From assembly GCA_902793005.1 (NCBI GenBank), contig CADBBQ010000006.1, positions 1-43,625 of the forward strand: 43,625 bases of DNA, given 5' to 3'. Of this stretch, positions 7,718 to 35,474 are shown piece after piece; the stretch's first letter is position 1, and each line of letters starts with the position of its first letter. Made by a program: the position numbers and the translations under genes. Source of the stretch: an uncultured Pseudomonadota bacterium (lineage in GTDB: Bacteria > Pseudomonadota > Alphaproteobacteria > Rs-D84). The notes under the pieces are model-generated. The model worked only from the letters and a program-made list of their open reading frames with translations, was not told the DNA's origin and did not search any database.

Positions 7718-9205
7718 TCACTCTGCCACCGGTCCGGCGATAAATTCACCAGTGCCTTGGTTGGTAAAGAACCGACCCGACACAGTATCATACAAACCAA
7801 CCGCACCGTCACTGTTCCGTTTTGCCGGAATGCCATTGAACAACATAACATTAGTTAAACTGTTTGTTATAACAAATAAATATACTTTACCTATACCATT
7901 ATTATTACTACTAGAAGTACCTGGACTACGGAACACGCCAACGTTACCATCTGTTGAGTATGGCGATATCGGAGTTAAAGTTCCAATTTCTGTATCATTA
8001 AGAACGACTTTATGTCCTGCAACATTAAACGTAAAATCAAATACGTCGTCAGTGATAGTCCTTGTTAATGTGTGTTCGCTAGAATTGTACATTGATGCAT
8101 AGTAAGAATCTCTATCCGTTCTTGATACAAGACCTTGATAATTGCCTTTACCACCAATAATAAAACCAAATCTAGAAAAAGTATTTGTTGTTTTTCCAAA
8201 TCTAACTTTTGTTTGAATATCTTCTCCAATATTTACACCAGTATCGATATACTGTGTCCCTGTGCTTTCGATATACTCCAATTCCGTATAACCGTCTGGC
8301 AGGCGGGAATATTGTTCCACAATCTCATACCAATGCGGGATGCCGCTGGCGTCTTCGACCAGCAGGCACTTTTTGCCGGCGGGGCATTTTTCATTATCAT
8401 CCGCAATGTCGTTCGGTCGCGTTTGTTTTTGCGCCTGCAAAGTCGCAATGCGGCCGGCCTGGGTTATCGTGTTCGACACTACCGAATCCACCACCGAAAT
8501 CGCATTCGCCAGCGCCGTATTCAACGGACTGAACGCAGTTTCGTTGTATTTCGTTGTTGCAATTTTAATTTCTGCAACCGGGCCGGCGACAAATTCGCCA
8601 CTGCCGGAGTTTTCAAAGAATTCGCCAGACACGGTATCATACAAACCAACCGCACCATCGCTGTTCCGTTTTGCCGGAATAAAGTTACCAACTAAATTGT
8701 TTGCTTGGTATATACTTGCTTTATAAAGCTTTTGTTTTACATAAAAAGATGTTCCTATATTGAACAATGTTATGTTTGTTTTACCTGTTCCTTTATATTC
8801 CGAAATGTCATAAGATTCTACTAGAACGTCGTCAATATAAAAATTTTTTAGAGCGCTATCCAAAACATAAGAATGTCTCGAAAAAACATTTTGTGATACA
8901 GTTATTGATGGATATAAATTACCTAGACCACAATATAATTGACCAGGATGATAGTAAGCAATCCAAAAATATGGACCAGCAGTCACACCATTTCCCCCAT
9001 TTTGTCTATTAGTGGATAAAAATTGAATATCCAACTCCATTCTCATTCCAGATGTTAATTTAGAAGCATTTACCTCGATTCCCGTGTCAATACTTTGCGT
9101 CCCGGTGGATTCGATGTATTCCAATTGAGTGTAGCCGCTGGGTAATGCGCCCCACACAGGCAATGTCCACAACAGCCCCAGTACGAGGCTTAATATTTTT
9201 CTCAT
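7718..9205 (-). CDS. Exported protein with two lectin-like LEYIESTGTQ domains
   Basis: The 495-residue product has a signal peptide (about 1-20, ending VWGA) and two homologous units, residues 21-212 and 301-495. Each opens with LPxGYTxLEYIESTGTQ and ends with PAKRNSDGAVGLYDTVSG ... GEF(V/I)AGPVAE. This layout resembles concanavalin-like (LamG-type) surface domains; that fold assignment is inference. A linker (213-300) with a helical, coiled-coil-like part and CPAGKKC separates them. The DNA of the two unit ends (7731-7834 and 8577-8680) is nearly identical, so recombination between them could change copy number. Ribosome site CGGGAG precedes the start. Probably cell-surface and adhesive; the ligand is unknown. 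Confidence 0.8.
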   Translation of the reverse strand: MRKILSLVLGLLWTLPVWGALPSGYTQLEYIESTGTQSIDTGIEVNASKLTSGMRMELDIQFLSTNRQNGGNGVTAGPYFWIAYYHPGQLYCGLGNLYPSITVSQNVFSRHSYVLDSALKNFYIDDVLVESYDISEYKGTGKTNITLFNIGTSFYVKQKLYKASIYQANNLVGNFIPAKRNSDGAVGLYDTVSGEFFENSGSGEFVAGPVAEIKIATTKYNETAFSPLNTALANAISVVDSVVSNTITQAGRIATLQAQKQTRPNDIADDNEKCPAGKKCLLVEDASGIPHWYEIVEQYSRLPDGYTELEYIESTGTQYIDTGVNIGEDIQTKVRFGKTTNTFSRFGFIIGGKGNYQGLVSRTDRDSYYASMYNSSEHTLTRTITDDVFDFTFNVAGHKVVLNDTEIGTLTPISPYSTDGNVGVFRSPGTSSSNNNGIGKVYLFVITNSLTNVMLFNGIPAKRNSDGAVGLYDTVSGRFFTNQGTGEFIAGPVAE

Positions 9206-9231
9206 GATTTTTTCTCCCGTTCTTTCTTTTT

Positions 9232-9302
9232 GTTAACCCCCGCCATCCCACTTCGCCAAGGCTTCGTGGGACAGGCCCCTCAACTTCGAGGGAGGGGAAC
9301 TT
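9232..9302. repeat. Intergenic repeat module (copy 3, inverted)
   Basis: Contains CCCCCGCCATCCCACTTCG, an arm pairing of TCCCACTTCG...CG(A/T)GGGA type and, read on the minus strand, AGTTCCCCTCCCTCG as at 7439. It sits directly upstream of the surface-protein gene. Confidence 0.5.
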
Positions 9303-9572
9303 TGCGGTGGGTTTGTTTCGGGACAAAAAGCCTGACTTTTGTATGGGAGTTGGATTCGGGGCCAATATCCCAAAACAAAAAAACACCGCCATCAACAGGA
9401 AGATTGCGGCAGGGGTGTTAGAAAAATCAGTTGTTCAATGACCCCGCGGGCGTTATCCGACACCGCGGCACCCCGCCGATTAACGGTTGTGGGGTATATA
9501 GTCAGGGATAAAATTTACATTTATAAATCTGGTGTAATGGAAAATTGTTCCTGCACCGTCGATGATGAATAA
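9303..9572. other. Intergenic stretch without a recognisable gene
   Basis: Open frames exist in both directions but none has a ribosome site, a recognisable domain or sensible composition. AACACC (about 9383) and GGTGTT (about 9415) could form the base of a long hairpin followed by AGAAAAA. It may hold remnants of the neighbouring surface gene or of the repeat family. Confidence 0.4.
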
Positions 9573-9761
9573 ATGTCGGTGCAAAATATGAATGCAACAA
9601 ACACAATCGTCCCGATTATCGAATCGGTTTTTTCAGATTGGGAGAGTCACGATGCAGACTTTGCACCGGAACAACCAGGCTTTTCTAAGGCCTTTACCGA
9701 AATCAACTCCCTGGTGATTTCTGATGTCATTATAGAAAAAATTTTTTTGCGTATGCAATAA
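9573..9761 (+). CDS. Possible small protein of 62 residues
   Basis: ATG at 9573 with a second in-frame ATG at 9588. Neither has a Shine-Dalgarno or clear promoter. The predicted product is acidic and soluble (FSDWESHDADFAPEQPGF in the middle) and I do not recognise it. Codon choice is compatible with real genes here but the call rests only on frame length. It ends just before a bidirectional terminator. Confidence 0.3.
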   Translation: MSVQNMNATNTIVPIIESVFSDWESHDADFAPEQPGFSKAFTEINSLVISDVIIEKIFLRMQ

Positions 9762-13260: not shown

Positions 13261-16200
13261 ATGTTGAAATTTTTTGTAAAACGCCCAATCACAACGATTA
13301 TGTTTGTCCTGTTTTGGGTCGTGTTGGGATTTTATTCTTTCAATGGTATGAATATTGAACGCACGCCGTCGTTGGATTTTCCATATGTGACCGCGTCTTT
13401 TGTTTATCCCGGTGCAGAACCTGCGGAAATAGAATCACAAATTTTGAAAAAGGCCGAAGACGCAATGTCCGAGGTTTCCGGTTTGAAAAAAATTACATCC
13501 CAGGCATATGAAAACGGTGGTTATGTTATGGCGGAATTCAACCTGGGGGTAAATGTAAATGACAAAGCGTCCGAGGTTAAATCAAAATTGGATGCATTGT
13601 CTTCGGAATTCCCGGATGATATGAAACAACCGGTTGTTGAAAAATTAAATCCATTACAGCAATCTGTGATTGATATTGCAATTTATGGCGACAATGTGCG
13701 TGATTTGTATGAATATACGGATGAAACATTGTCTAATAAAATAACGGCTATTCGTGGTGTTGCAAATGTAAATGTGTTTGGGGGGCTGCAACGTGCGATT
13801 CGTATTGAAATGTCGCCTGATGAAATGGCGGCGCGTGGTGTTACAATTGTTGATATTGTATCGGCGTTGGGGAATAAAAATTTAAATGTTCCTGGCGGTA
13901 AAATAGAGGCCGGCACCGCGTCATCCAATGTTCGTTTTGTTGGTGAATTTGCCAGTGTTGATGAAATCCGTAATTTGCAAATCGTCACATCCGAAGGGCA
14001 AAATTTCAAATTATCTGATGTTGCAACGGTGCACGATTCTGCGCGTGATATTGAACGCGGCGCATTGTATAACGGCAATAATGTTATTATCGCATCTGTT
14101 ATCAAGGCATCTGATGGAAACGCAATTAAAATTTCAAAAGCATTGCGTGCGATTTTGCCAGATTTAGAAAAACAAATGCAAACAAAATTCCCAGATGCCA
14201 AAATGGAAATCGTGGCGGATTCATCTACAACCGTGGCGGACGAAACATACGATACGATTTATGGAATTGTTTTGGGTATTATTTTCACGGTTATTATATT
14301 GTTGGTGTTTACCCAAAATTGGCGTTCAACCGTTATTGCGGGTGTTGTGATTCCGGCATCCCTGGTTGCGGGTCTGTTCTTTATCAGTATCAGCGGTTTT
14401 ACAATCAACGCAATGACATTGTTGGCGTATTCGTCGGCGTTGGGAACATTGGTGTCTAATGCAATTATTTTGATTGAATCGGCATTACAAGAAATGCGCG
14501 CCGGTGCATCACCCGAAGACGCGGCAATTGTTGGTACTAAAAAGGTTGCTGTATCCGTCTTGGCGGGCGTTGGAACAAATGTTGTGGTGTTTTTACCGCT
14601 GGCGTTTATGGGCGGAATCGTCGGTCAGTTTATGGTTCAATTTGGTATGACGGTTGTGTATTTGACTTTGTTGTCATTACTGTTTTCGTTCACATTGACA
14701 CCAATGATGATAGCAAAGTTTTTGCGTTTGAATAACGTTCGTGAAAAAATCAATGTTGCCGAAGTTAAACGCGAAGAAAAACAAACGCGTCTGCGTCGTT
14801 GGTATGATTATCAATTTGCGCACGCCGGCCGTGTTATTTTGTTGGGGGTTGTGGCGTTGTTTGTTGCGGCACAATTGATGGGTTTTGTTGGTAACGAATT
14901 CCAACCGTCAACCGATGTGAATAAAATTACACTGACGGTGCGTGCGCCAATGGGGGCAACATATGAAAAATCGTTATCTGTGGCAAATGACATAGATAAA
15001 ATTTTGCATACCTATCCCGAGGTAGAATCCACCGTTGTAAAAATTGGTGAGCGTGGCTTGCAAAATATTACGATAACGACGAATTTGGTTGATCATACCA
15101 AACGCGATATATCTGATAAAAAATTAGCCCAAAAAATGTTGCGTGATATGGCAAATATTGCCGATGCAGAAATTCAAATTCGTGCGGGCGAATCGACATC
15201 GGGCGGTATATCGTCGGATATGGTGTTAAATATATACGGCGACGATGACGCAACGCGTGAACAATATGCAAATGAATTAATTCGTCGTATAAACAATATA
15301 CCCGAAGTCCAAAGTGCGGTATTGGCGCAACAAAAACCAAACAACGAAATTCGTTTTGTTCCAAACCAAGAACAAATGAGTGCGTGGGGCGTTAAAAATT
15401 CTTATGCGGGTTCTGTATTGCGTACGGCCGTTTATGGAAATGATTCGTATAAATATAAAGAAAATGGCAAAGAATATCCGATTGTTTTGGAATTTGCGCG
15501 TCCATTTAAAACAAACTTTATGTTTAACAGTGTTTTTGTAAATTCGCCACGCGGTATGGTTGCTTTGTCGGAATTGGGGGAAATACAAAATGTTCCATCC
15601 ACACCAAATATTACGCGTTTGGATAAATCACGCGTGACTGAAATTGATGTGAATATCGGTAAATCCACAATTGGCCCGGTCCAACAAAAGATAGAATCCG
15701 AAATCGCCGAAATGGAATGGCGTGCAGGATACAGTGCAAAATTTGCCGGTATGTCTGAAATACAAAGTGAATCAACATCTGAAATTGGTATGGCGTTTAT
15801 TTTGGCGTCTGTGTTGACATTTATGTTGTTGGCGGCGATTTTGAATTCTTTGACGCATCCATTGACGATTGCAACATCAATCATCACCAGTTTTATCGGT
15901 GTGTTTATGTTGTTATTCTTGTCCGGTGCATCAATGAATGTTGGCGCGATGTTGGCGTTCGTTATGTTGGTTGGATTGGTTGTGAATAACAATATTTTGG
16001 TGTTGGAACCAACGGTAAAACGTGTGCGTGCCGGTGAAAAACCGTTTAATGCATTGTGGACCGAATTGATGGCGAAACGCAATATGGTGTTGATGACATC
16101 TATTGCGATTATGGCGGGTATGTTGCCGCAATTATGGTCAGCCGACCAAATGAAATCTGGTATGGCGGCGGTTATGATTGGTGGTATGTTGGCAAGTTTG

Positions 16201-28238: not shown

Positions 28239-28386
28239 AAACCAAAATAAAATTAAAATTTCAGTGGTCAATCCCGAATATCATCCGGCATAGATTCCGA
28301 TTCCGGATGCCCCAAAAAACAGACTACTTTCAATGTCGATTTTTTCCGGATTTCCGCCGGTTTTTATAGAAAAAATAGTCCCATTT

Positions 28387-28526
28387 AAACCAACGTTTGT
28401 GTACTATTTTTGCACCGACCGATTTATCAAAATCGCACAGCCAAAAAATACCGAAATTCCGACATTTTTTCGTTTTGAACAAACCCGAATTATTAATAAA
28501 AAATAGGTTGATTTTAACGTTGGTTT
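28387..28526. repeat. Long interrupted inverted repeat upstream of the recombinase-like gene
   Basis: Left arm 28387-28411 contains AAACCAACGTT ... CTATTTTT; right arm 28499-28526 contains AAAAATAG ... AACGTTGGTTT, in mirror order. The arms are 87 bp apart. The right arm lies over the spacer of the operon promoter (28508-28536). The 87 bp between arms are AT-rich and carry no gene. This is an operator pair or a relic of recombination sites. Confidence 0.6.
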
Positions 28527-28536
28527 GTTTTATATT
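28508..28536 (+). promoter_or_regulatory. Promoter of the polysaccharide operon
   Basis: TTGATT (28508-28513), 17-bp spacer, TATATT (28531-28536), then 7 nt to the ATG at 28544. No Shine-Dalgarno lies between, so the first gene is probably leaderless. Confidence 0.6.
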
Positions 28537-28543
28537 GCAATGT

Positions 28544-29101
28544 ATGATTTACGGGTTGATTTCTTTGGGCCACATAAAGCACGACGCCGGGGCACAGCGC
28601 GCCGCGATTGTTGCCTGGGCCAAACGCCAAAATTTAACCATAAACGCATTTATTTCATTTGAAAAAAATCCAGATATTTCCACTTTGGCCCCGGGCGACA
28701 CAGTTATTTGCCACGATTGGGATTGCCTGTGTGGCGAGCGTGCATTTTTGCGCGAATTTTTGCAACGCATCCTGACAGACGGCCTGTGCCTATATTCCAC
28801 GCGCAGTGAATATTGCCTGGACCAAGGCCGTCATTCTATGAAATACGCATTTGAAATGTATGCCGAAATTTGGGACACATTTATATCATACAAAAATTTC
28901 CAAGGTGCGCGCCGTCGTGCGGCGAACGGGGGCTTTATGGGTCGTCCGCGTGGTTCGCGCGGCACGCGCCACAAAATGGATGGCCGCGAAGAAATCGCCA
29001 TTGAAATGCATCGCGACGGGCGCAGTATGTACGCCATTGCGCACGAACTGGGCGTATCCGCCCCAACAATTAAACGATTTTTATCAGCCCAAGGATTCTA
29101 A
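28544..29101 (+). CDS. Serine-recombinase (invertase/Mpi-type) homologue without catalytic residues
   Basis: 185 residues from ATG 28544 (MIYGLISLGH). The layout matches small serine invertases: a resolvase domain (1-~125), a linker with MGRPRGSRGTRHK and a C-terminal helix-turn-helix (MYAIAHELGVSAPTIKRFLS). The catalytic residues are gone: the nucleophile motif YxRVS reads LISLG (Gly9 in place of Ser), and the SRLGR arginines read DCLCG (Cys61, Gly64). The HTH is intact. It may work as a DNA-binding regulator rather than a recombinase (inference). It is first in a co-directional run with only 2 bp to the next gene, so it probably regulates its own polysaccharide operon. Confidence 0.75.
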   Translation: MIYGLISLGHIKHDAGAQRAAIVAWAKRQNLTINAFISFEKNPDISTLAPGDTVICHDWDCLCGERAFLREFLQRILTDGLCLYSTRSEYCLDQGRHSMKYAFEMYAEIWDTFISYKNFQGARRRAANGGFMGRPRGSRGTRHKMDGREEIAIEMHRDGRSMYAIAHELGVSAPTIKRFLSAQGF

Positions 29102-29103
29102 TT

Positions 29104-30006
29104 ATGCCACGAACAAAAACCGCATTATCGAAACCGACAACCCGCGCGCCACGCACCGCAACCCGTGCCCCACGCGTATCGGTATTAACGCCGATTTACA
29201 ACACGAACCCGGCGCATTTGCGGGAAATGATTGAATCTATATTGAATCAGACCTTTACGGACTTTGAATTTTTAATTTTGAACGACAGTCCCGACAATCG
29301 TGACATCGAAAAAATCGTTCTTGATTATGCGAAAAAAGACGCCCGCATAAAGTATGCAAAAAACGAAAAAAATATGGGCATCACCCCCAGTCGCAACAAA
29401 TTGCTGAAAATGGCGCGTGGGGAGTATTTGGCGATATTTGACCACGACGACATATCGGTGCCGGACCGCCTGGAACAAGAGGTTGCATACCTGGACGCAC
29501 ACCCACACATCGGCGTAGTATCGGGCTGGCTGCAATATTTCGGCAACGACAACAGCATTTGGAAAACACCGGAATTTGACACAGACATCCGCATAATGTT
29601 ATGCCACAGTTGCTATATCGCGCACACGGCGGCAATGATACGGAAAAGTGTCCTGACCGACAATAACATAGAATACGAAGAATTCTATACCCCGGCCGAG
29701 GATTATCGCCTGTGGGCGCGTTTAATGGACGTGACGCATTTTTATAATTTGCAAACGGTATTGGTAAAGTATCGTTGGATGGGTGGTAACACATCCAATA
29801 TTTATTCATCGCGCACAGAGTCCGCGCGTCGTGCGATTCAGATTGATGTGTGGGATAAACACCCCGGGTTATATTCGATTAGCCAGATGTATGCACCCGG
29901 GACCAGATTCAGATTGCGTCTGTTTGGAATACCATTAATAAAAATCAAGAACAACAAAGTTTACTTATTTGAATTCATCCCTGTATTAAAAATGTTATGG
30001 AGATAA
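29104..30006 (+). CDS. Family 2 glycosyltransferase
   Basis: A GT-A fold enzyme adding a sugar from a nucleotide donor, here in surface polysaccharide assembly. The 300 residues have a basic N-terminal extension, then SVLTPIYNTNP, ESILNQTFTDFEFLILND and the metal site AIFDHDD at about 116-122. The pattern E-D-Y-x-L-W (AEDYRLWARL) marks the acceptor side. AAGGATTCTAATT is the ribosome site. Its closest relative in the window is the glycosyltransferase at 32356. Confidence 0.92.
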   Translation: MPRTKTALSKPTTRAPRTATRAPRVSVLTPIYNTNPAHLREMIESILNQTFTDFEFLILNDSPDNRDIEKIVLDYAKKDARIKYAKNEKNMGITPSRNKLLKMARGEYLAIFDHDDISVPDRLEQEVAYLDAHPHIGVVSGWLQYFGNDNSIWKTPEFDTDIRIMLCHSCYIAHTAAMIRKSVLTDNNIEYEEFYTPAEDYRLWARLMDVTHFYNLQTVLVKYRWMGGNTSNIYSSRTESARRAIQIDVWDKHPGLYSISQMYAPGTRFRLRLFGIPLIKIKNNKVYLFEFIPVLKMLWR

Positions 30007-30009
30007 GTT

Positions 30010-30879
30010 ATGCGAATTGAACACTGTCAAAATGGTCGCACGCATATATGGATTGGTGGTGTGAAAATACTATCGTGGGGACCACGTCGGGTAAAGCCGT
30101 TTAAAAATCCAAAACTTGGTATTTCATACAGTGTTTGGGACGGCGAAGAATTATTGGAACAATCAATAAAACAAATTCGCCCCGTTGCAGATTATATCAA
30201 TGTTGTTTGGCAAAAATTATCGTGGTATGGAAAACCGTGCAGTCCGGGATTGGAAAAATTATTATTAAAATTGAAAGCCAAAGGTTTGATTGATGAAATT
30301 ATATTTTTTGAACCAGATTTATCGTTGAACCCATCGTATAATGAAATCAATAAACGCAATGTGGGACTGTGTGCGGCACGGCGCGCGGGGTGTACACACT
30401 TTATGACAATGGACACCGACGAATTTTATGATACAGAAAAATTTCGCGCCGCATATAACGATATTGTTGAAAGAAATTTAACACATACGTGTTGCAATAT
30501 AATTTCGTATGTCACACCAACGGTTCGCTATCGTGACCCAGAAAGTTTTTTTGTTTCATTTATAAATCGAATTGACCATAACGAAAAATTTACATTTGAT
30601 GCATTTCGTGATTATATTCCGTGCTTGGTTGACCCGACGCGCAAGATTAAATTGTGTAAAAAATCGCGTTTTTGTTTTTTGGGCAATGTTGTTATGCATC
30701 ATATGACACATATTCGACGCGATATAAATAAAAAAGTCGAAAACAGCACAATCAGTCAAACCAACGAACGTGCTAACAATTTAAAAAAATCTGTCAATTC
30801 TGCCATACACAACATCGAATCAAAAATAAAATCAGGCGAGTACATTATCGTAAAAAACAAATTTGGAATAAGGATATAA
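30010..30879 (+). CDS. Probable glycosyltransferase with DxD motif
   Basis: The 289-residue product resembles GT-A glycosyltransferases: a beta start with GISYSVWDGEELLEQSI, a NxGLCAARRAGCTHFM helix and the metal motif MDTDEFYD near residue 139. The second half contains several Cys and His residues and ends in a Lys-rich helix. It lacks the classical GT2 nucleotide loop, so family placement is uncertain; substrate unknown. Three bp after the preceding gene. Confidence 0.72.
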   Translation: MRIEHCQNGRTHIWIGGVKILSWGPRRVKPFKNPKLGISYSVWDGEELLEQSIKQIRPVADYINVVWQKLSWYGKPCSPGLEKLLLKLKAKGLIDEIIFFEPDLSLNPSYNEINKRNVGLCAARRAGCTHFMTMDTDEFYDTEKFRAAYNDIVERNLTHTCCNIISYVTPTVRYRDPESFFVSFINRIDHNEKFTFDAFRDYIPCLVDPTRKIKLCKKSRFCFLGNVVMHHMTHIRRDINKKVENSTISQTNERANNLKKSVNSAIHNIESKIKSGEYIIVKNKFGIRI

Positions 30880-30881
30880 CA

Positions 30882-31631
30882 ATGAACAGAATATACAGAT
30901 TTTTATACCATTTATTAAAATTTATCCCGTTTAAATCCAAAAAAATGCGAAATTTTTTGCAAGTGTTGCGTTTTTATTACAAAGGCAATGACTTGATTGT
31001 TTTGTCTAACGACGGACGCAAAATAAAGAACCCGATTAAAATACCAAAATGCTTACAAATTCAAACATATTTGAATACACACAACAATAAAATTGTTATT
31101 GCAGAAAATCAAAAAACAGGTTCTTGTATAAAATTAAATTTTTATAACGCAAATTCAATAAATATAGAAATTGGCGAAAATAATATGCTTTGTATGACCG
31201 TAACTATCCAGGGCAAAAACGGTCATGCGGTTATTGGAAATAACAATTACATATGTCAGTCAACGGTATATTTATATTGTTCGGGAAAAACAACATTTAA
31301 TATTGGCAACAATAATTTATTTAGTGACGGCATTGTGCTTTGGGCTGGTGAAGGGCACTGTGTTATAAACCCAGTTGATAAATCCGTTACAAATATGGGT
31401 GGCAACATAACGATTGGAAATAATAATTGGGTTTGCCAAAATGTATGCTTTTTGAAACGCGCAAAAATAGGTAATGGTTGCATTGTTGGGTATGGTGCTG
31501 TTGTTGGTACAGATTTTTCAAAAAATGATAATTGTGTAATAGCAGGTAATCCCGCGGTTGTGACCAAAAGTAATGTCCAATGGTCAAATCAAGCACCATG
31601 GGAATATAACGGAAAAATTTATATGGAATAA
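30882..31631 (+). CDS. Hexapeptide-repeat acyltransferase (first of a tandem pair)
   Basis: A left-handed beta-helix enzyme probably transferring an acyl (acetyl) group to a sugar. It has 249 residues: a basic N-terminal helix (RIYRFLYHLLKFIPF), then imperfect hexapeptide turns (IGENNM, IGNNNY, IGNNNL, IGNNNW, IGNGCIVGYGAVV) and the family end NCVIAGNPAVV. The second half of the polypeptide has the trimeric acyltransferase signature. Ribosome site AAGGATATAACA. Similar in plan to the following gene. Confidence 0.88.
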   Translation: MNRIYRFLYHLLKFIPFKSKKMRNFLQVLRFYYKGNDLIVLSNDGRKIKNPIKIPKCLQIQTYLNTHNNKIVIAENQKTGSCIKLNFYNANSINIEIGENNMLCMTVTIQGKNGHAVIGNNNYICQSTVYLYCSGKTTFNIGNNNLFSDGIVLWAGEGHCVINPVDKSVTNMGGNITIGNNNWVCQNVCFLKRAKIGNGCIVGYGAVVGTDFSKNDNCVIAGNPAVVTKSNVQWSNQAPWEYNGKIYME

Positions 31632-31641
31632 GGATATAAAA

Positions 31642-32343
31642 ATGAAAAACATTATTGCGGTTTTGTGTTGGTTTATACCATTTAAAAATATACGACACAG
31701 ATTAAAAGTCAAATATGTCAAAAGCAAACGCATCAAGTATCACAATAACAATCGTATAATTATACATATGCCAAATGGTGATACGGTTATAAATCCGTAC
31801 AGTATTCCTGGACTTGAAGTGTCGTTTGAAGGGGCAAATTCAACAATTGAATTATTTTACCCAATAAGATTTCATAAATCGAATTTTATGTGCAAAGATG
31901 ACTGCAGTATTGTAATAAAACAATCGTGTTTTATGGGATTGACCGTTGATATGTATAACAACACATCCGTATTTATTGATGAAAATTGCCAAATCGGTGA
32001 ATGTCATGTTGCTATGCCAAACGAGCAAAACACATCATTACATATGGAACCAGATTGTGTGTTATCTACTGGAATTGAAATATGGACAACCGATGCCCAT
32101 CCTATTTTTGATATGAAGGGTAAATGTATAAACAATCGTAAATCATGTGTAAAAATTGGACGGCATACTTGGATTTGCAGAAACGCAACGTTGTTAAAAG
32201 GTGCACAAATTGCCCCAAACAGTATTGTTGGACATTCATCCGTAGTATCATCAAAATTCACGGATGAAAATGTTGTGATTGCTGGCAATCCGGCACAAAT
32301 TGTTAAACACGACATAAATTGGTCTGGCGGAAAAATTGATTAA
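31642..32343 (+). CDS. Hexapeptide-repeat acyltransferase (second of a tandem pair)
   Basis: 233 residues from ATG 31642 (ribosome site AAGGATATAAAA; the frame open from 31573 overlaps the previous gene). It starts with VLCWFIPFKNIRHRLK, has looser hexapeptide turns, then KIGRHTWICRNATLLKGAQI and the family end ENVVIAGNPAQIV. The N-terminus and the overall order mirror the preceding gene, which indicates tandem duplication and divergence. Acceptor sugar not deducible. Confidence 0.87.
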   Translation: MKNIIAVLCWFIPFKNIRHRLKVKYVKSKRIKYHNNNRIIIHMPNGDTVINPYSIPGLEVSFEGANSTIELFYPIRFHKSNFMCKDDCSIVIKQSCFMGLTVDMYNNTSVFIDENCQIGECHVAMPNEQNTSLHMEPDCVLSTGIEIWTTDAHPIFDMKGKCINNRKSCVKIGRHTWICRNATLLKGAQIAPNSIVGHSSVVSSKFTDENVVIAGNPAQIVKHDINWSGGKID

Positions 32344-32355
32344 AAGGATTACAAA

Positions 32356-33207
32356 ATGAAAAACAACAAAGTTTCGGTTATTATGCCAGCCTACAATGTT
32401 GAAAAATATGTCAGCGAGGCAATTGAATCTATATTAAATCAAACTTTTACTGATTTTGAACTTATCATCATAAATGACGGTTCAACTGATAATACAGCCA
32501 GCATTATTGACGAATATGCAAAAAAAGATAAAAGAATAAGATTCATAAATCATAGTAAAAATAAAGGACTTATTGCGGTATTAAATGAAGGGCTTGATTT
32601 GTGCAATGGCCAATATATTGCCCGCATGGACAGCGATGATATTTCATTACCGGAACGTTTTGCAAAACAAGTCGCATACTTGGACACCCACCCCGAATGT
32701 GGTGTCTTGGGGACATGGTTTCACGTGTTTGGAAACAAAGATTATATAAATAATACACACCCAAAAAAATTAGATATTCTTAAAATATTACAGGGATGTT
32801 TTGTTGCACACCCAACTGTTATGATGCGAAAATCTGTGATTGATAAATATGGTTTCCGTTATGATGCTGATTATAAACATGCAGAAGATTATGAATTATG
32901 GTCACGTATGATATTTGTAACTGAAATACATAATTTACAAGAAGTATTGTTACAATATCGCTGGACAGATACAAATATCAGTGTCGTCCATTCACAAACC
33001 CAACAAAATGTTGCCAAACAAGTGAAACAAAATATATTGGACAAACTTACCAATAACACAGAAAAACAGCAATATATTGTTGATTGGATAAATGGACGAA
33101 TTAAAAAGGGATTTTTGTTGCCAAAATGGCTAGGAAAAATCGTTTGTTTGTTCATATTTAAACACGACAAAAGACATGATTACCGTGAAAAATATGTAAA
33201 AATGTGA
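32356..33207 (+). CDS. Family 2 glycosyltransferase
   Basis: 283 residues with a textbook GT2 N-terminus: VSVIMPAYNVEKYVSEAIES, ILNQTFTDFELIIINDGSTDN, then GLIAVLNEGLDL and ARMDSDDIS as metal motif, and AEDYELWSRM. Ribosome site AAAAGGATTACAAA. It shares long blocks with the enzyme at 29104 (ESILNQTFTDFE; H-P-x-x-G-V), pointing to common origin. Part of the surface-polysaccharide operon. Confidence 0.95.
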   Translation: MKNNKVSVIMPAYNVEKYVSEAIESILNQTFTDFELIIINDGSTDNTASIIDEYAKKDKRIRFINHSKNKGLIAVLNEGLDLCNGQYIARMDSDDISLPERFAKQVAYLDTHPECGVLGTWFHVFGNKDYINNTHPKKLDILKILQGCFVAHPTVMMRKSVIDKYGFRYDADYKHAEDYELWSRMIFVTEIHNLQEVLLQYRWTDTNISVVHSQTQQNVAKQVKQNILDKLTNNTEKQQYIVDWINGRIKKGFLLPKWLGKIVCLFIFKHDKRHDYREKYVKM

Positions 33208-33222
33208 ACAAAAGGATAAAAA

Positions 33223-34605
33223 ATGACAAAAGTAAATGCGTTAGATTTATTTTTAAGACAACGAAGATTCGATTTAATTTTTAAATATATTTATATAAAG
33301 AATAAGAATAAAAATATTAAATTTTTCGAAGATTTATATGCAGAACATATTCGTGCTTTCAATAATTTTCATGAAAGAGTGCCAAGTGATGGTATTCCCA
33401 AAGAATCGCGTCAAGATTTTATAAATTCTTTCGATAAATTATATGATAATATTAAAAAAAATGGTTTTGATAAAAAACAGGGACTGATACCAGTTGGCGA
33501 GAATGGTGAAATTAATGATGGTGCACACAGATTAACAATCGCTGCCATATTAGGTTTAGAGGTTGATATAAAAAAAGAACATATTAATTGGCTTTGGGAT
33601 TATAAGTATTTTCAAAATCAAAATATTGATCCTTATTATTCTGATTATGCCGCATTAGAATATGTAAAGCTAAACCCAAATGCTTATATTGTAAACTTAC
33701 AACCTGTAGTATCTACAAAACACGACGAACAGGTTGAACACATATTGGAAAAATATGGTTTTATTTATTACAAGAAAAATGTTGATATAACATTTAATGG
33801 CTTAGTAAATCTTAAAAAATTATCTTATGGTTCTTGTTGGGAAAAAAATTGTAGTTGGATAGGTGATATAAAAAATGGTTTTTCTGGTGCTGTTTTGCAT
33901 GCAAAAAAATCGTTTGGTCGCAACCCCTTGAGAGTATATGTTTTTGTATGTGATAATTTACAAAAAGTTGTGGCGGCAAAAAAAGAAATACGCGAATTAT
34001 TTAATATTGGTAATTTCTGTGTACACATAAACGATACCAGAGAAGAGGCAATTGAATTAGCAGAAACGTATTTTAATGAAAATTCATTGCATATGATAAA
34101 CAAACGTCCATATCAATATGAAGATAAGCATTTTGACGACATGGTCACAGAATTAAGAAACAAAATATATGAGTGTAAAATTGAATTAGAAGATGTTTGC
34201 GGTGCAGGAAGCACACCCCTAGATATTTATGGAATAAGAAAAAGTAATGATTTAGATTTTCTTTATTGTGGAAATCAATCTTTTGATATTCAAACAAACA
34301 CACTATCTAATCACGATTCGCAGTTAATTTACTACCCTTATGATAAAAAAACTATTATATACTCACCAAAAAATTATTTTTATTACAAAGGTATTAAATT
34401 TATTAATTTAGATGTCTTATATAAAATGAAAAAAAATCGCAACGAGAAACCCAAAGATGTAAAAGATTGTAAAATAATAAAATCTTTCAAACAACGTAAG
34501 GTATATCGTAAATCAAACTTTAAAATATTACGTAAAATAAAAGACGGAAACAAACGAACGTTGGTATTTTGTAATTTCATAAAAATAAAATATACCAAAA
34601 GATAA
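33223..34605 (+). CDS. ParB-like domain fused to a minimal nucleotidyltransferase-like domain
   Basis: 460 residues, strongly AT-rich gene. Around 87-112 it has GLIPVGENGEINDGAHRL followed by TIAAILGLEV, the ParB/Srx-type GxHR pattern (G100-A-H102-R103). After a middle region of about 200 residues without recognisable family, residues 327-345 read GAGSTPLDIYGIRKSNDLDF, fitting the GS ... DxD motif of the polymerase-beta nucleotidyltransferase superfamily (GS at 329-330, D343/D345). A third part with VLYKMKKNRNEKPKDVKD follows, as in small nucleotidyltransferases. The activity and its role in polysaccharide synthesis are unknown. Last gene of the operon. Confidence 0.6.
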   Translation: MTKVNALDLFLRQRRFDLIFKYIYIKNKNKNIKFFEDLYAEHIRAFNNFHERVPSDGIPKESRQDFINSFDKLYDNIKKNGFDKKQGLIPVGENGEINDGAHRLTIAAILGLEVDIKKEHINWLWDYKYFQNQNIDPYYSDYAALEYVKLNPNAYIVNLQPVVSTKHDEQVEHILEKYGFIYYKKNVDITFNGLVNLKKLSYGSCWEKNCSWIGDIKNGFSGAVLHAKKSFGRNPLRVYVFVCDNLQKVVAAKKEIRELFNIGNFCVHINDTREEAIELAETYFNENSLHMINKRPYQYEDKHFDDMVTELRNKIYECKIELEDVCGAGSTPLDIYGIRKSNDLDFLYCGNQSFDIQTNTLSNHDSQLIYYPYDKKTIIYSPKNYFYYKGIKFINLDVLYKMKKNRNEKPKDVKDCKIIKSFKQRKVYRKSNFKILRKIKDGNKRTLVFCNFIKIKYTKR

Positions 34606-34630
34606 AAGTGGTACAAGAGTACCACTTTTT
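34604..34630. terminator. Bidirectional terminator between convergent genes
   Basis: 11-bp perfect stem (AAAAGTGGTAC / GTACCACTTTT) with loop AAGA; it overlaps the stop codons of both flanking genes. Confidence 0.9.
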
Positions 34631-35474
34631 AGGCAGCTAATCCACATACATACCATATATTATTTGTGGTTGCACAACTGAATGTAAATCCTGTTGTAGA
34701 GCGTGTTTTATATCCAGCAACCCATGCAGGATAATATGATTGTTGGTTTCCTGTTCCGCATTGGGTGCGAATAACGGTATAGTGTGTATCTGCCATTTCA
34801 ATTGGAAATGTTACGCTGGATGCATTATTTGTTGTTTCGCCGCCCATTTCTACCCATTTGGATTTGTATTTTCTGAACCAGGTATAATTATTTTCTGCGG
34901 TGGGAAATTGGGATTCAATTACATAATCTGTCATTCCCATTGTGCGCACATTTACCGCCGTGATATTTTCACTGTTCGTGGATACATCTGTGCGCAGTGT
35001 CGATATGTCGCCCAGGGCCGCAATTTTCGCGTCTATGTCCACAATCTCGTCGTGAATCGCCGAAATACGCGCTAATATCGCCACCGCGGAATCGTGGTCT
35101 GCGATTTCGGCATATTGCGTGCGCAAAGTGTCTAAATCGTCTTGTTTGTCTTTTAAAACCTCCATCAAATAATTCAAATCCTGGTTCAGCATCACCGGTT
35201 CAATCCGCGCCATCGGCTGGTAATCGGCTATCCGTATCAGTGGTAATTGCCGCGCTATCGTGATGTATTCCATTTGACGCGGCGGCGTGTCAAATACGAC
35301 TTTGCCACCGTTAAAAGGAACATCTGCGTTTGGGCCGCCCGCGTTCCCGATGATGTTGTATCCGTGCGCCGGCGCGTTGTCCACTGTGACGATGATGTTG
35401 CTGTGTTCGAAATAGGGGAAATTAAAGTAAAATTCGGAAATCCTGCCGTTTCCCATAAATGATATTTTTTGCAT
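34629..35474 (-). CDS. Phage tail-fibre-like protein
   Basis: 281 residues from ATG 35474 (AAGGAG ribosome site; an open frame to 35696 is not used). The N-terminus (FYFNFPYFEHSNIIVTVDN ... TIARQLPLIRIADYQP) resembles the T7-type tail-fibre attachment domain. A coiled-coil middle (MEVLKDKQDDLDTLRTQY...) follows, then a C-terminal domain (about 205-281; YTWFRKYKSKWVEMGG, ending CATTNNIWYVCGLAA) like the gp53-type fibre tip. No other phage gene is adjacent, so it is an orphan: a prophage remnant or a domesticated adhesin. Two terminators shield it from the gene upstream. Confidence 0.78.
   Translation of the reverse strand: MQKISFMGNGRISEFYFNFPYFEHSNIIVTVDNAPAHGYNIIGNAGGPNADVPFNGGKVVFDTPPRQMEYITIARQLPLIRIADYQPMARIEPVMLNQDLNYLMEVLKDKQDDLDTLRTQYAEIADHDSAVAILARISAIHDEIVDIDAKIAALGDISTLRTDVSTNSENITAVNVRTMGMTDYVIESQFPTAENNYTWFRKYKSKWVEMGGETTNNASSVTFPIEMADTHYTVIRTQCGTGNQQSYYPAWVAGYKTRSTTGFTFSCATTNNIWYVCGLAA

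Follow-up and report, generated by a model that had tools for sequence, protein, structure and literature searches.

A catalytically dead Mpi-type invertase homologue heads a polysaccharide operon behind a putative invertible promoter and may regulate that switch

The window analysed here, a stretch of 43,625 nucleotides, encodes an Mpi-family serine-recombinase homologue that is catalytically dead, as judged from its residues, yet is no decaying pseudogene. Its gene appears to be the first one behind an invertible promoter that the window holds in the ON orientation. Across its relatives, the gene is consistently marked by lost catalysis, signatures of purifying selection and a stable link to host polysaccharide genes. 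We propose, with a probability just under one half (about 0.48), that this dead paralogue has been kept as a DNA-binding regulator of the switch of a phase-variable polysaccharide operon. The features on which this proposal is built are the following.

28387-28397, + strand: left inverted-repeat arm AAACCAACGTT, outer half of a recombination site plus core; homologous sites occur in relatives
28396-28517, + strand: putative invertible promoter segment, 122 bp when measured between the CG cores of left and right site; ON orientation here, with a -35 at its right end only
28508-28513, + strand: -35 hexamer TTGATT, inside the invertible segment; switches ends among relatives
28516-28526, + strand: right inverted-repeat arm AACGTTGGTTT, inside the -35/-10 spacer
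28531-28536, + strand: -10 hexamer TATATT, not part of the segment, 7 nt upstream of the ATG
28544-29101, + strand: operon-leading gene for a dead 185-aa homologue of Mpi-family serine recombinases (profile, fold, alignment)
29104-30006, + strand: GT2 glycosyltransferase (PF00535, E 7e-30)
30010-30879, + strand: operon gene without Pfam match
30882-31631, + strand: hexapeptide acyltransferase-like protein (PF00132)
31573-32343, + strand: hexapeptide acyltransferase-like protein (PF00132), true start probably further in
32356-33207, + strand: GT2 glycosyltransferase (PF00535, E 4e-42)
33223-34605, + strand: operon gene without Pfam match; a similar gene lies in the dead-led operon of genome G088
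34629-35474, - strand: tail-fibre-like protein converging on the operon end; homologues end several other dead-led operons
G000:C1:91877-92473, another contig of the window genome: intact Mpi-type invertase, L002 type

The frame of the dead gene extends from an ATG at 28544 to a stop codon at 29099-29101, and the ATG of the GT2 gene follows at 29104 after a gap of 2 bp, in agreement with the coordinates, frame and gene order proposed in an earlier reading made from the sequence alone. The NCBIfam model of the Mpi family aligned to residues 1-183 of the protein (E 8e-17; 61 bits, the equivalog cut-off being 272 bits), and the Pfam families HTH_7, HTH_38 and Resolvase matched it only below their cut-offs. 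An AlphaFold2 model (pLDDT 82) retrieved Tn3 and gamma-delta resolvases as best Foldseek matches (E 1e-7). Profile alignment and structure prediction, both suggested with the sequence-only reading, thus converge on the Mpi kinship claimed there and on a resolvase/invertase N-terminal fold followed by a C-terminal HTH.

Comparison with 79 active relatives revealed that Gly9, Cys61 and Gly64 of the window protein stand in columns occupied by Ser (99%), Arg (100%) and Arg (100%), which bears out the earlier assignment of a lost nucleophile and lost SRLGR arginines. Equivalents of R7 (Ser there), Q13, E58, K87 and R117 are also missing, and a region with a further conserved Arg is deleted. This loss of the catalytic Ser and of the active-site Arg and Glu extends to the entire clade of dead relatives. 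A re-read frame with a Ser nucleophile was looked for on both strands, and none was found: no frame of 28380-29110 encodes a [YFV]xR[VIL]S or [SD]R[LF][GAS]R motif. We give next to no credence to a recombinase still active through other residues. The fold is retained and S7 lies two residues from the nucleophile position, but the S7 position holds Phe or Leu in other clade members, the nucleophile and the conserved Arg and Glu positions are gone in all of them, and no alternative frame restores the motif.

A profile search of 156 genomes of the window organism's genus yielded a clean split, with ten proteins from nine genomes, the window included, at E <= 5e-61 and active invertases from E 1e-37. 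An eleventh dead member is carried by L085, a contig of a viral collection. Contig ends in G088 and G108 hold one more partial copy each, of which the G088 copy is probably the 5' portion of an already counted gene. The eleven members are all dead in the same way and are confined to one genus of reduced-genome gut Alphaproteobacteria. Records bearing the gene include Candidatus Enterousia onthequi and alphaproteobacterial MAGs, among them sheep-rumen and horse-faeces ones (for related reduced-genome lineages, see PMC12306168). The clade was absent from 45 genomes of other genera of the order, and a 289-genome draw of the class returned only the window's own genome. The single window protein recovered no related loci as a query; these were retrieved with the alignment. 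Chance would not account for this: ten proteins from nine genomes and the viral-collection contig all preserve both the reading frame and the dead state.

In a quick tree with long branches, the dead proteins form one clade (SH-aLRT 100) on a stem of 3.87 changes per site, with active invertases of a second type, H, as nearest neighbours, and the loss of catalysis appears to have had one origin. The dN/dS ratio was 0.12 between two G108 copies, 0.10 between G062 and G108 and up to 0.19 in other close pairs, this range of 0.10-0.19 coming from the closest pairs with finite dS, since synonymous sites are near saturation in most pairs; pN was below pS in 77 of 77 pairs. All full-length copies keep intact frames across deep divergence and have acquired newly invariant residues, and W59 and C61 are invariant in the ten aligned proteins. 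By these measures the clade is under purifying selection, and a pseudogene reading was ruled out by dN/dS together with the intact frames.

The DNA-binding part of the protein fared differently from the catalytic one. While all catalytic columns are lost in the clade, arm residues G133/R134 and the HTH core are kept, and identity to type H averages 40% (maximum 64%) over arm and HTH versus 24% (maximum 31%) over the catalytic part. Identity between the HTHs of the dead clade and of the L002 type is 25%, which makes shared site recognition uncertain. In the E-helix, a Glu and an Arg present in 97% of active enzymes are replaced by Arg (9/10) and Phe (8/10), and a conserved pattern new to the clade (Y106, E107, R110 and F113) suggests a dimer interface of its own; the E-helix of the window protein deviates from its relatives. 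The dead protein of G129 (L067) is 248 aa long, with a second HTH-like repeat at its C-terminus.

At every dead locus with downstream sequence the dead gene leads polysaccharide genes (annotation outside the window was done by eye), so that the operon-lead position noted from the window sequence holds in every relative examined. The next gene is mostly a GT2 of the window's kind; other loci have an FdtA-like gene plus an aminotransferase gene (G014), an RgpF-like first gene (G126) or a glycosyltransferase (L085). Active type-H invertases likewise head glycosyltransferase operons, and the lead slot therefore probably predates the loss of catalysis. The reverse strand of L176 (G108:C24) encodes, behind an ON inverton, an in-frame fusion of the initial ~42 residues of a dead-invertase gene with a glycosyltransferase. 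Tail-fibre-like genes converge on the end of glycosyltransferase operons in the window and in L065 (11702-12487) and L070 (8489-9400), with further cases in L067 (~8862-9677, by eye), L069 (8880-9473, by eye) and L071 (~14171-14356); their match to a PHROG tail protein reached E 4e-12 in L070 and E 0.002 in the window. Given these genes and the phage-type genes that also lie upstream of the active invertase in G088 and L085, a prophage tail-fibre locus may be the ancestor of the module.

Directly upstream of the dead gene, inverted repeats with 118 bp between the arms flank a segment that holds only part of the promoter: the -35 lies inside and the -10 outside, with the spacer between them taken up by the right recombination site. 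An 11-bp repeat alone is not rare, as 8.5% of shuffled intergenic sequences reach that length; a call from the repeat by itself was hence rejected, and the assignment of an inverton rests on comparison. A TTGATT-like -35 occurs at one end only in 24 of 26 homologous segments (left in 14, right in 10), the remaining two having it, by the pattern used, at neither end and at both ends, respectively. Relatives' segments with a left-end -35 align better when inverted. Near-identical copies on contigs C20 and C24 of G108 lie in opposite orientation, scoring 119 over 125 bp when inverted and 8.5 when direct (shuffles, 7 +/- 4), so both orientations are represented among homologous loci and even within this genome. 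Dead loci were found ON in the window, G126, G129, G088:C30 and the second G108:C20 copy, and OFF in G014, G062 and the first G108:C20 copy. This higher ON frequency at dead-bearing loci (5/8 vs 4/15) has the direction expected of locking, but it is not significant (two-sided p 0.18) and was discarded as evidence for it. In G018 and G065 the dead gene sits behind promoters without clear CGTTGG-type sites, and the inverted repeats near it (10 and 9 bp, respectively) are possibly due to chance.

The sequence-only reading stands as to catalytic death, Mpi kinship and lead position, but it had missed both the invertible promoter and the intact Mpi-type invertases elsewhere in the genome. The dead gene would thus not replace a switch, the promoter itself being apparently invertible. 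Only 7 nt separate the -10 from the ATG, so the ON transcript probably has no leader or almost none; G014 shows the same spacing. L080 (G088) and L085 share a conserved leader of ~200 nt ahead of the dead gene; it has complementary GGGGGTG/CGCCCCC-type arms and matches no Rfam family. Rfam searches of the G018, G088 and L085 leaders gave no hit at gathering (one chance-level match elsewhere), and a fold of three sequences gave no convincing common structure. G006 carries eight near-identical palindromic site pairs (L177-L184; ACGTTGGTTTGTTTTATA) with 78 bp between, several of which precede one same gene start, ATGCCGGCAATACATG; they resemble a multi-copy family of promoters built on the same half-site.

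No active invertase adjoins the dead gene in the window, and the intact Mpi-type enzymes are encoded on other contigs. Relatives of the L002 type (E <= 6e-73) were detected in 38 of the 156 genomes, but in 9 of the 9 that bear the dead gene (P 1e-6, kinship ignored). Elsewhere the L002-type gene usually adjoins this kind of inverton: at 19 loci that were read, it is oriented divergently to a homologous segment whose left and right sites resemble AATAGAACG and TCGTTGGTTTG, respectively. The L002-type gene of the window genome lies beside an apparent decayed inverton and, being on another contig, would act in trans. The genome would accordingly hold a cognate-type recombinase for its inverton, and this intact enzyme is probably the flipper of the window segment. 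Most other L002 invertons drive, by eye, lipoproteins or long surface-type proteins without a dead gene, and one in G103 drives a glycosyltransferase operon, also without it. In three type-H loci, CGTTGGATTGTT matches the L002 right site significantly (p 0.003-0.007), which suggests that the DNA-binding ancestor of the dead protein probably used a related half-site. The type-H invertases of L046, L048, L058, L009 and L052 head glycosyltransferase operons and are followed by segments whose orientation, by eye, appears to differ between species (L009 opposite to L046/L048/L058), a second inverton family.

Catalytic death, Mpi kinship, operon lead and purifying selection all fit a repurposed protein, for which we infer a regulatory role. 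With the L002-type invertase flipping the segment in trans, the dead protein would be made only in the ON phase, dimerise and bind the recombination half-sites through its arm and HTH; the better conservation of this part, the kept G133/R134 and the presence of CGTTGGATTGTT at type-H loci all point to such binding. Bound to the right site, it would sit across the -35/-10 spacer and damp transcription; at either site, it would contend with the invertase and keep the segment in its present orientation. Any protein on the right recombination site, in the gap between -35 and -10, would influence inversion and transcription alike. More tentatively, with a probability near one in three, the dead invertases would as a natural family serve as an ON-only feedback element that competes with invertase and RNA polymerase at the same sites, conferring memory and a dosage limit on a phase-variable sugar coat. 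The promoters of G018 and G065, the G103 operon, the G108:C24 fusion and the 25% HTH identity all fit poorly with a regulator of the switch.

Alternatively, the protein may be a DNA-binding transcription regulator whose target is not the inverton but other surface loci in trans, allowing one coat at a time, or a site inside its own operon. Such a regulator would also need the kept arm and HTH, its putative own dimer interface would be in keeping with the E-helix pattern, and the dead gene does occur behind varied arrangements (L002 divergent, H codirectional, neither in G018), in line with a target independent of the type of inverton. We nevertheless regard it as rather unlikely, given that the dead gene directly adjoins a switch in nearly every locus and that no common target motif was found.

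The kept HTH would in turn be superfluous if the protein acted by contact only, poisoning or tuning active Mpi-type invertases in mixed dimers or tetramers with no need for a DNA site of its own. Serine-recombinase nucleophile mutants can still assemble on DNA, the fold is the same and active invertases are present in every dead-bearing genome, but the exchange of the E-helix Glu/Arg argues against a common interface, and we consider this mode of action improbable. Still harder to sustain is a vestige carried along with the operon. It would account for the absence of the gene from the inverton-driven operon of G103, for the remnant in G108:C24 and for the deviating E-helix of the window protein, whereas the dN/dS values, the intact full-length copies and the newly invariant residues all speak against it. 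We therefore retain regulation of the switch as the preferred reading.

The sequence-only reading drew a parallel with Bacteroides invertases that flip capsule promoters. Among the closest known systems is Mpi, the master DNA invertase of Bacteroides fragilis, by which seven polysaccharide promoters are inverted (PMC4747536). Fold, architecture and the coupling of an invertible promoter to a polysaccharide operon are common to Mpi (NCBIfam NF009949) and the window system, whose probable flipper is likewise an intact Mpi-type enzyme. Unlike Mpi, the window protein is devoid of catalytic residues, and its own gene comes first under the switch. The host is moreover alphaproteobacterial, and its promoter, with sigma-70-like hexamers, keeps the -10 outside the segment. 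In B. fragilis, the regulators UpxY and UpxZ are encoded by the leading genes of capsule operons; UpxY is NusG-like and acts on transcription elongation. The window protein resembles them in leading a phase-variable polysaccharide operon and, putatively, in its regulatory role, but UpxY is no recombinase relative. Another precedent is TldR, nuclease-dead TnpB relatives turned into RNA-guided repressors (PMC13418256). Here too, a dead descendant of a mobile-DNA enzyme has kept its DNA-binding part and is stably linked to a surface-structure gene; the enzyme family is a different one, no guide RNA is involved, and DNA binding and repression by the window protein are predictions.

The open-access literature text searched contained no conserved dead serine invertase leading an inverton-controlled operon. 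Gut Alphaproteobacteria with reduced genomes (under about 1 Mb) hold a rich set of Mpi-type invertons on surface genes. Models of phase variation usually rest on a single enzyme inverting DNA at a more or less constant rate; if our proposal is true, a conserved dead paralogue as the first ON product would give the switch feedback, and serine recombinases would join the mobile-DNA enzymes domesticated after catalytic loss.
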